In this document: in pieces, positions 22,764-25,286 of the stretch
Numbering within the stretch: the stretch's first letter is position 1
Layout of the letters: each line of letters starts with the position of its first letter
From: Agrobacterium larrymoorei
GTDB lineage: Bacteria; Pseudomonadota; Alphaproteobacteria; Rhizobiales; Rhizobiaceae
Reading direction: 5' to 3'
DNA: 64,000 bases
Assembly (NCBI RefSeq): GCF_005145045.1
Contig: NZ_CP039691.1
Span: forward strand, 131,001-195,000
Notes under the pieces: generated by a model
What the model saw: the letters and a program-made list of their open reading frames with translations, nothing else
What the model was told of the DNA's origin: nothing
The model's database searches: none
Program-made: the position numbers and the translations under genes

Positions 22764-23870
22764 TTAGATTTCCGCACCCTGCGCAGCTTCCACCTCACGG
22801 CCTTTTTCCTGCCGATTGTAGCGGATGGAAGACCAGAGCGAGATGCCGATGAGTGCCGCACCGCCAAGACCGGTAATCACTTCCGGAATATGGATAAGGC
22901 TCTGCATGTACATGATGACCGACAGGATGAGGATGGCGTAGAACGCGCCGTGCTCAAGGTAGCGGTATTCTGCAAGCGTACCCTTTTCCACCAGCATGAT
23001 GGTCATGGAGCGGACATACATCGCGCCGATGCCGAGACCGATTGCGATGATGAACAGGTTCGACGTCAGCGCGAAGGCGCCGATCACGCCATCGAAAGAG
23101 AAGCTGGCATCGAGCACTTCGAGGTACAGAAACGCGCCGAAGCCGCCCTTTGCAGCACCTTCCAGCATCTGCTGGCTGCGATCGAGAACGCCGCCCAGCA
23201 CCTCGACCAGAAGGAAGGTCAAGAGACCCCAGATCGCGGAGGTGAAGAAAACGTTTGCTGCCTCCGGGCCGAGATCCGGATTGGTGCTGTTGCTGATGAT
23301 GCGCGTGAAGATCAGCATAATGATGAGAACGAAAGCGATTTCGATGCCCTTGATGGACGAATAGGTCGCGATCTTTTCTTCGAACCAGCGAACCCAGTGC
23401 ACATCCTTCTCATGATCGAAAAAGAAGCTGAGGCCCACCATCATCAGGAAGGTGCCGCCGAAGGCAGCAATCGGCAGATGCGCGTCATGCATGATCTGTG
23501 CGTAACGATCCGGCTCGGTTGCGGCCATGACCATGGCTGTCCACGGGCCGACATTGGCTGCAACGACTACAATGAGCAGCGGGAAGACGATACGCATGCC
23601 GAAGACGGCGATCAGAATACCCCAGGTCAGGAAGCGGTGCTGCCATTCCGGGGTCATGTCTTTGAGCTTGTTGGCGTTGACGATGGCGTTATCGAAGGAA
23701 AGCGAGATTTCCAGAACCGCCAGAACCGCGCAAATGAAGAAGATCGTGGCCGTACCGCTGACGGTGCCCGTCATTTCCCAGCCGAGCCATCCGCCCAAAA
23801 TAAGGCCGACGACCGTGACGATGAAGGCCCATTTGAAATAGGCGAGGGTCGAGTGTGTGGTAGAGGTCAT
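22764..23870 (-). CDS. TerC-like DUF475 integral membrane protein
   Basis: 368 residues with eight to ten membrane segments. It carries the TerC-type motif LEISLSFDNAIVNANKL (about 50-66) and a second one later (LEVLDASFSFDGVIGAFAL), both with paired Ser/Phe/Asp. TerC/DUF475 proteins are linked to metal-ion export or metal loading, often manganese or tellurite response; the ion here is not shown. The start codon overlaps the stop of a 27-codon upstream frame (TGATG), and a structured leader and promoter lie beyond, so expression is probably controlled at RNA level. Confidence 0.85.
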   Translation of the reverse strand: MTSTTHSTLAYFKWAFIVTVVGLILGGWLGWEMTGTVSGTATIFFICAVLAVLEISLSFDNAIVNANKLKDMTPEWQHRFLTWGILIAVFGMRIVFPLLIVVVAANVGPWTAMVMAATEPDRYAQIMHDAHLPIAAFGGTFLMMVGLSFFFDHEKDVHWVRWFEEKIATYSSIKGIEIAFVLIIMLIFTRIISNSTNPDLGPEAANVFFTSAIWGLLTFLLVEVLGGVLDRSQQMLEGAAKGGFGAFLYLEVLDASFSFDGVIGAFALTSNLFIIAIGLGIGAMYVRSMTIMLVEKGTLAEYRYLEHGAFYAILILSVIMYMQSLIHIPEVITGLGGAALIGISLWSSIRYNRQEKGREVEAAQGAEI

Positions 23871-23953
23871 CAGAACGCCCCCCGGATAAAGGAAGAGCGA
23901 GACATATGCATGGCGTCAGACGCCAGCATGTGATGCTTGGTCAGATTGTTCAT
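23870..23953 (-). CDS. Candidate 27-residue leader peptide upstream of the DUF475 gene
   Basis: An open frame of 27 codons starts at ATG 23953 with GGCGGA 9 nt upstream and ends in TGA overlapping the ATG of the DUF475 gene (TGATG). The peptide begins MNNLTKHHML and is rich in His and Met (KHHM, MHM). Its mRNA can fold into two tight hairpins (GGCGTC/GACGCC at 23912-23924; AGCAT/ATGCT at about 23926-23938). Overlap geometry suggests translational coupling. Whether the peptide or only its translation matters is unknown. Confidence 0.5.
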   Translation of the reverse strand: MNNLTKHHMLASDAMHMSRSSFIRGAF

Positions 23954-24071
23954 GGGTGTTAATCCGCCGGCGTAACAAGCAGGCGGTACCGACATCGCGA
24001 GAGCGCCGTAAAACTCTCGCCAGAGGGGCCCGGCACCAAAGTTCTGTCCCTACCCGATGTCAGGGGCGGGA
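23954..24071 (-). ncRNA. Structured 5' leader, candidate riboswitch, of the DUF475 gene
   Basis: After the promoter, the leader can form a closing stem GACATCG (24061-24055) with CGATGTC (23997-23991). This encloses a hairpin GCGAGAG (24020-24014) with CTCTCGC (24003-23997), followed by CCGCC (23986-23982) with GGCGG (23968-23964). The last stem contains the ribosome site of the 27-codon frame. A ligand-dependent switch that hides or frees that site is inferred. TerC-family genes are often under the yybP-ykoY manganese riboswitch, but I do not see its GGGGAGUA signature, so the class is left open. Confidence 0.45.
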
Positions 24072-24078
24072 ATGTCCT

Positions 24079-24107
24079 TTAGTCTCTCAACTTCGTGATT
24101 TCGTCAA
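24079..24107 (-). promoter_or_regulatory. Promoter of the DUF475 leader
   Basis: TTGACG (-35, 24107-24102), 17-bp spacer, GACTAA (-10, 24084-24079) on the minus strand, placing the start of transcription near 24071. Confidence 0.5.
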
Positions 24108-24215: not shown

Positions 24216-25145
24216 TTACACCACATCGCCAAGTGGTTGATCCGCCACCTTCGCCTGTTTCCGCTTCAGCGCATTTTCACGGAAGAAGATGTAAAGGCCG
24301 GAAACGACGATCAGCGCGGCTCCGATAACGATGCTGGACTGCGGAATATCGCCGAACATCAGCCAGCCGAAGACGACGGCCCAGAGCAGCAACGTATATT
24401 GCAGCGGTGCGACTGTCGCTGCATCGGCGAGCTTGAGAGCGCGATTGACCAGCACATGCGCGGTCATCGCGACGATGCCCAGAAGGGCAAGCAGCGAGAG
24501 ATCGAAGCCCGATTGCAACGGCACCCAACCCGAAGGCGCCAGCATGATGGCGACCACGCCGGCGAGGCCAGCGCCGATCACCTGCCAGAAGGCCAGAACC
24601 GTATCCGGCGTATTACGCAGTTGCCGACCGGACAGCATCATAAAGGCAAAGGCGGCGCTGCCGAGAATGGAGAAGAATGCAGCGCTCGTTAGTGAAGCGG
24701 AGCTTGGTTTCAGCGCAATCAGAACGCCGATGAAGCCGATGCCGATTGCGGTCCATCGTCTCCAGCCCACTTTTTCGCCTAAGAGAAAGGGCGAAAGTGC
24801 TGCCACATAGATGGGGGCGGCCAGCCAGTAGGTCATGACGTCTGCCAGAGGCAGTGCTGCCACCGCGAAGTAGAAACAGAAAAGCTCGGCGGTGGAAAAG
24901 AAAACGCGCGCGACCTGCAAGCCGGGGCGTTCCACATTCACCAGCTTTGAGAGGCCGGATTTCCATAGGATTGGCACGAGAATGACGATGGCCGCAACGC
25001 TGCGGATAGCAACCACCTGCCCGAGGCTGTAGGTCGAAACCAGCCATTTGCCCATGGCATCGTTGAGGGCAAAGAGCAGCATGCCGAGAAGCATGACGGC
25101 CACGCCAAGACCCGTCGGCGAAAGCTGGCGAATAAATTGCGGCAT
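24216..25145 (-). CDS. EamA/DMT family drug-metabolite transporter
   Basis: About 309 residues from MPQFIRQLSPTG, which has GGGGAG upstream. There are ten hydrophobic segments forming two EamA repeats (for example LLGMLLFALNDAMGKWLVSTYSLGQVVAIRS and ALALLGIVAMTAHVLVNRALKLADAATVAPLQY). Members export small metabolites or amino acids; the substrate is not evident. It lies downstream of hutF on the same strand with a 141-bp gap, so co-transcription is possible but unproven. Confidence 0.88.
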   Translation of the reverse strand: MPQFIRQLSPTGLGVAVMLLGMLLFALNDAMGKWLVSTYSLGQVVAIRSVAAIVILVPILWKSGLSKLVNVERPGLQVARVFFSTAELFCFYFAVAALPLADVMTYWLAAPIYVAALSPFLLGEKVGWRRWTAIGIGFIGVLIALKPSSASLTSAAFFSILGSAAFAFMMLSGRQLRNTPDTVLAFWQVIGAGLAGVVAIMLAPSGWVPLQSGFDLSLLALLGIVAMTAHVLVNRALKLADAATVAPLQYTLLLWAVVFGWLMFGDIPQSSIVIGAALIVVSGLYIFFRENALKRKQAKVADQPLGDVV

Positions 25146-25286
25146 TTTGTTTTGAACTCCCCGGAGCGCTAAACGACCGTTAAAAGCAGCAGACGCCCCG
25201 CCTCCCTGCATTGACAGCAATGACTTGACGAGCAGACGACGCAAGTCAAGGCGTCCTGAGGGCTATATTAGCGATCCATGGAGATT

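Follow-up and report, generated by a model that had tools for sequence, protein, structure and literature searches.

In the 64,000-nucleotide stretch of Agrobacterium larrymoorei DNA analyzed here (the window), a leader with a terC RNA core lies between a promoter-like element and the gene for a DUF475/TerC-superfamily membrane protein, on the minus strand. The features that enter the argument are the following.

22764–23870, minus strand: DUF475/TerC-superfamily membrane protein, 368 aa (PF04332, 352.5 bits; PF03741, 74.4 bits)
23870–23953, minus strand: 27-codon leader ORF, MNNLTKHHMLASDAMHMSRSSFIRGAF, whose stop overlaps the DUF475 start
23876–23883, minus strand: G-rich ribosome-binding-like stretch before DUF475, GGGGGGCG
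23908–23929, minus strand: hairpin within the small frame
23963–23968, minus strand: GGCGGA, ribosome-binding site of the small frame, assigned from sequence and from its spacing in relatives
23964–23986, minus strand: hairpin burying that ribosome site, CCGCCUGC/GCCGGCGG (23979–23986 with 23964–23971)
23968–23972, minus strand: CGCCG, predicted target of the loop, ending 14 nt short of the small ATG
23980–24041, minus strand: terC RNA (P1, conserved internal loop and P2)
23985–23992, minus strand: 3′ strand of P1, whose last CC (23985–23986) also begins the ribosome-site hairpin
24004–24013, minus strand: apical loop of P2, UUUUACGGCG
24030–24037, minus strand: 5′ strand of P1
24048–24066, minus strand: 5′ hairpin from leader comparison; its loop region contains GACATC, the complement of terC RNA's invariant GATGTC
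24079–24107, minus strand: promoter-like TTGACG-17-GACTAA (TTGACG at 24102–24107, GACTAA at 24079–24084)

A first-pass annotation had described 23870–24107 as a structured leader with a His/Met-rich leader peptide ahead of a TerC-like gene, and had suggested an undescribed RNA or a peptide-based metal sensor. Its coordinates and features were verified, and both an RNA regulator of the TerC-like gene and a structured ribosome site are supported, but the RNA itself is not new. Judged by its covariance-model match, it is the known but little-studied terC RNA (Rfam RF03067): the cmscan match (24041–23980, E = 5.5e-9) is full length, covering model positions 1–59 of 59, and scores 64.7 bits against a curated cut-off of 39.9 bits. 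What had been drawn as a closed stem with an inner hairpin corresponds to P1 (24030–24037/23985–23992) and P2 (24014–24020/23997–24003). Among 46 DUF475 leaders, P1 is paired in 96.7% of cells, with both-side changes in one of its eight pairs, and P2 in 100%, with both-side changes in three of seven; this covariation agrees with membership in the family, as does the location directly before a TerC-type gene of the same orientation. The model consists of P1 and P2 only and stops 6 nt beyond P1. Three features discussed below fall outside it: the coupled ORF, the hairpin at the ribosome site and the pairing of the apical loop near that site. The absence of a visible yybP-ykoY signature was also read correctly, as RF00080 matches neither the window nor the A. 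larrymoorei genome (in control searches the model matched in 5 of 14 known genomes). terC RNA was reportedly described by Weinberg et al. in 2017, and our search of a limited literature collection turned up no study of it.

The A. larrymoorei genome (5.26 Mb, 4 contigs) contains three terC RNAs: the one in the window, one before a TerC gene (L003) and one (L002) located 42 nt upstream of the gene for a 103-aa protein (MLSDIAAWFITLF...) that matches no Pfam family, a class found at five other nonredundant sites. At least one terC RNA was present in all 39 genomes searched from the genus, in 56 of 101 from the family (140 of 237 in a larger draw) and in 25 of 190 drawn class-wide. Caulobacter crescentus, the species of the laboratory strain NA1000, is another carrier. 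For gene context we took the first recognized gene within 2 kb at 156 nonredundant sites (230 in total), assigned by tblastn with 12 seed proteins, a procedure that can miss a small first gene. TerC, DUF475 or YjbE-like genes follow 101 of the 156: TerC (~330 aa) 57, DUF475 26 and short TerC (YjbE-like) 18. The others are DUF4112 (9), the 103-aa protein (6), BI-1 (5), TerB (4), lipid kinase (3), Na/Ca exchanger (2), various (2) and none recognized (24); Pfam assignments for eight chosen proteins place DUF465, zinc-ribbon, TerB and M48 peptidase among the unrecognized genes. Conversely, when 35 DUF475 genes of the family sample were compared by hand, 20 had a terC RNA just upstream and 15 had none nearby. 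Opposite-strand terC RNA pairs ~100–200 bp apart, apparently serving divergent genes, were seen at G176:C2:1489503 and 1489661, G264:C157:2785 and 2971, G265:C9:125403 and 125560, and G116:C17:110510 and 110716.

Our comparison of the leader itself used 94 leaders in which terC RNA precedes DUF475 (90 distinct records, four contigs having been fetched twice). At the "good promoter" of the first-pass annotation, a strict consensus promoter scan gave zero sites (24079–24107), but TTGAC stands 55–110 nt 5′ of the terC motif in 86 of 94 leaders and in 81 of the 89 distinct upstream stretches; a control stretch 115–170 nt upstream contains it in 8 of 94. GACATC occurs 5–65 nt upstream in 10 of 26 nonredundant DUF475 leaders (0 of 26 at 65–125 nt) and in 3 of 130 other terC leaders. 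Those portions of the DUF475 literature that we consulted describe no leader; in one such study, as far as its consulted portion goes, a Brucella DUF475 gene was expressed less in a vaccine strain.

The small frame's TGA overlaps the DUF475 ATG as TGATG (23872–23868), and this arrangement is conserved in relatives. Of the refuting outcomes named in the first-pass annotation, a clean Rfam match is thus seen, while a small frame lacking conservation is not. Stop-start overlap with the DUF475 ATG, as a translationally coupled leader ORF should have, occurs in 85 of the 94 leaders (81 of 90 distinct), by 4 nt in 67 and by 1 nt in 18; among the first 63, 57 overlap (40 by 4 nt, 17 by 1), three abut (−8, −8, +2) and three have no such frame, and a later set of 31 adds 28 with the overlap, a single abutting case and two that lack the frame, so that four of the 94 abut instead, at −8 or +2. 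The overlapping ORFs, 23 to 43 codons long, come in 15 different lengths but keep one and the same phase. Since shuffled versions of the stretch stay open about half the time (mean 0.53, 20 nonredundant leaders), the evidence for the frame is its constant phase and overlap rather than its openness. The frame's ATG lies 9–14 nt after GGCGG wherever the ribosome-site hairpin exists, and exactly 10 nt after it in 44 of 58 leaders. In four of the five frameless leaders (L009, from Paracoccus; L086, from a Rhodobacteraceae genome; L302; L303) DUF475 itself begins 37–40 nt after GATGTCG, the same place that the small ATG takes in the other leaders (34–42 nt after it); the fifth, L082, has neither a small frame nor a DUF475 start there. 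A longer small frame, beginning at the ATG within GATGTCG (23995), was considered and rejected: it is in frame with the small ATG in 41 of 85 cases, about as expected by chance.

The further stem said to hide the ribosome site is likewise borne out, as CCGCCUGC pairing with GCCGGCGG. This hairpin pattern is found in 79 of the 94 leaders and missing from 15; in 46 leaders it is paired in 94.7% of cells and is nearly invariant, and its covariation cannot be judged because the sequence hardly varies. It shares its first CC with the end of P1, and some of its inner bases also belong to the loop target; therefore full P1 plus the loop contact should compete with it. The computed states of the window, without the loop contact, are only 1.6 kcal/mol apart (−29.1 for full P1, −27.5 for a shortened P1 plus hairpin). 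Folding energy of the leader showed no excess stability (z = −0.82; 44 of 200 shuffles equally stable), and free folding of the whole 250-nt leader leaves P1 unformed whereas the 96-nt core fold shows it. The anatomy of the leader thus exceeds chance by homology to RF03067 and by conservation of the frame, not by folding energy alone.

A sign of how terC RNA might act comes from those placed before TerC genes, in which the apical loop of P2 covaries with bases mostly 11–19 nt 5′ of the start codon. For 54 nonredundant leaders of the TerC and orphan 103-aa classes, the best helix between the loop and positions −28 to −9 scored a mean of 13.95, compared with 10.87 for permuted partners (z = 9.0, 0 of 2000 permutations), and 22 sites scored at least 15 where 7.5 were expected. 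Control windows at +3, +23 and +63 gave z = 0.6–0.9, and −48 to −29 gave z = 1.83 (p = 0.039, n = 28, TerC). A test fixed in advance on unlike loci fetched later gave z = 3.65 (0 of 5000, n = 18), with other windows at −1.4 to 0.4, and in the pooled set (n = 72) real loops scored 13.92 against 11.73 when reversed, 11.14 when complemented and 10.58 when shuffled. Because the genomes are related, permutation leaves some effects of descent in these values; near-duplicates were dropped and the neighboring windows serve as controls. When the whole stretch was searched, the target ended 11–19 nt before the start at 20 of the 25 sites scoring at least 15. The matching pairs are unlike one another: CUCGGCG/CGCCGAG, UCGGCAC/GUGCCGA, CCGACCCA/UGGGUCGG and, in the A. 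larrymoorei genome's own TerC leader, CCGGAC/GUCCGG. No such pairing was found in the YjbE, BI-1 or DUF4112 classes; sites without a recognized gene gave z = 2.2 and 2.9 in two windows. In the TerC leaders L003 and L184, P1 and the loop target are separated by a large additional hairpin (GGTTGGGG...CCCCAACC), yet the gap from target to start is still 14 nt.

Other conserved segments were also compared with downstream sequence. For the 5′ strand of P1, complementarity in the YjbE class did not rise above permuted partners (z = 0.3, n = 15) and was dropped as a candidate; in DUF475 leaders this comparison reached z = 3.1 (p = 0.0055). Individual YjbE-like leaders do show P1 5′ strand matches near the start codon (CCAGGCC/GGCCTGG and CCAGACC/GGTCTGG, among L170, L174 and L056). 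The conserved CCGGGCCCCUCUGG can pair within the first 60 nt downstream at 30 of 146 sites (shuffle mean 18.4, maximum 28), possibly reflecting ribosome-site complementarity in some lineages such as Pseudomonas (L055, L112). In those two leaders, the invariant GCCCCUC is complementary to the TerC gene's ribosome site, GAGGGGC.

In the window, loop bases CGGCG (24004–24008) can form 5 bp with CGCCG (23968–23972), a geometry the same as that of the covarying TerC-class pairing. In an initial test set of 25 nonredundant DUF475 leaders, every best loop partner ended 13–19 nt short of the small ATG, and pairing exceeded that with permuted partners (z = 3.2). These partners are GC-rich, 4–5 bp long and nearly invariant, and among 37 leaders the real loop (12.58) scored no better than its complement (12.69) and little better than its reverse (12.18), so that the evidence for the contact from the DUF475 class alone is weak. 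A few Rhodobacterales leaders have both partners changed (L009, GGCGGC/GCCGCC; L082, judged by eye, UGCGAC/GUCGCA). Because the DUF475 partners are so short and invariant and the complemented loop does as well, the contact proposed for the window rests mainly on its likeness to the TerC class.

Taken together, the sequence comparisons suggest that the leader is probably a terC RNA switch that works at translation, acting on the coupled leader ORF. The apical loop of P2 would dock just upstream of the ribosome site, as a pseudoknot or kissing contact, and the folded aptamer with this contact would compete with the hairpin that buries the site. A signal that stabilizes the aptamer would shift the balance and change how often the small ORF is initiated; ribosomes finishing it would reinitiate at the overlapping DUF475 start or make it accessible, so that DUF475 output would change, the peptide being a by-product. 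As to the signal, our tentative candidate, with somewhat less than an even chance, is a divalent metal, Mn2+ for example, or some condition linked to such a metal. Metal is the first guess because TerC proteins have manganese-related roles in Bacillus subtilis, where meeY has a Mn-responsive riboswitch (PMC10550928, in the portion consulted).

We lean slightly toward folding of the aptamer opening the ribosome site, i.e., an ON switch. The opposite sign, in which the folded aptamer and the loop contact close the site as in compact pseudoknot riboswitches, is a less probable but substantial possibility: the paired target mostly ends beside the Shine-Dalgarno position, as would suit occlusion, but in DUF475 leaders a conserved hairpin already hides the site, and P1 with the loop contact competes with precisely that hairpin. 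It seems rather unlikely that terC RNA instead acts on transcription, by termination or Rho, with translation of the small ORF only keeping the transcript going and the loop pairing being part of aptamer structure. Work on the ppe2 leader of mycobacteria considered Rho as well as a coupled uORF (PMC11260477, in the portion consulted), which lends this reading some plausibility; here, however, a consensus scan found no terminator-like site in the DUF475 leader (three lie at 24645–25203, upstream of the promoter), and the fixed distance from the loop target to the small frame's start points to initiation.

A further rival reading is that the peptide itself senses metal or stalls the ribosome. 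With three His and four Met among 27 residues, the window's peptide ranks first among 78 distinct peptides for His and internal Met taken together, which explains the attention that the first-pass annotation gave to it; that composition, however, is not conserved, and the metal-sensing role proposed for it is not supported. Across the 78 peptides 3.6% of residues are His and 4.3% are internal Met, 21 have no His at all, and within groups of alike frames variable columns fall almost evenly on codon positions 1, 2 and 3 (82, 81 and 88, of 385 each). Pointing the other way are a weak M-K/N-x-L-T-M-P consensus that recurs at the peptide start and a rough nonsynonymous-to-synonymous ratio of ~0.59 from 23 pairs, indicating mild constraint; the hairpin within the small ORF, which is paired in 67.4% of cells and has both-side changes in six of eight pairs, partly coincides with the consensus and may explain part of it. 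Given also the range of lengths, we regard a sensing or stalling peptide as very improbable. By this comparison what is conserved in the 27-codon ORF is its reading frame and not the peptide it encodes, and the conserved overlap agrees with translational coupling rather than with metal sensing through His and Met.

More generally, we give about even chances to the view that terC RNA is an orphan riboswitch that base-pairs its apical loop with the controlled gene's ribosome site, and that before DUF475 the immediate target is a "sacrificial", freely evolving ORF, conserved only in being initiated as the RNA dictates and in ending on the start codon that follows. terC RNA is widespread in alphaproteobacteria, before several membrane and metal-related gene families, and a covarying loop-to-ribosome-site contact offers a concrete mechanism, with mutants to test, that would help to find the ligand. 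The coupled ORF, seen across Rhizobiales-type genomes, would be a case in which selection keeps a reading frame rather than a peptide, and it cautions against taking a single His- or Met-rich leader peptide sequence as a sensor.

The closest known system is RF03067 itself: the window matches all 59 model positions, P1, P2 and the internal loop included, and here too the RNA precedes a TerC-superfamily gene; the loop pairing, the ribosome-site hairpin and the coupled ORF set the window apart as additions outside the model. Compact pseudoknot riboswitches of the SAM-II and preQ1 types likewise use a loop or hairpin to pair in the region of the ribosome site. Their fold is different, and here it is the P2 apical loop that would contact bases ~14 nt before the start. 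The yybP-ykoY (Mn2+) riboswitch RF00080 also regulates TerC-family genes, B. subtilis meeY among them (PMC10550928, in the portion consulted), but it is a different RNA with no counterpart in this genome. For the coupling, the nearest parallel in the consulted portion of PMC11260477 is Mycobacterium tuberculosis ppe2, where a B12 riboswitch precedes a short translated uORF with an AUGA stop-start overlap and ppe2 expression depends on translation of the uORF. RNA and ligand are unrelated to ours, and ppe2 is one tested case whereas ours is a comparison only, of 85 of 94 leaders; the order of riboswitch, short translated ORF and stop-start overlap is nevertheless the same, making ppe2 a tested precedent for the coupling that we propose.
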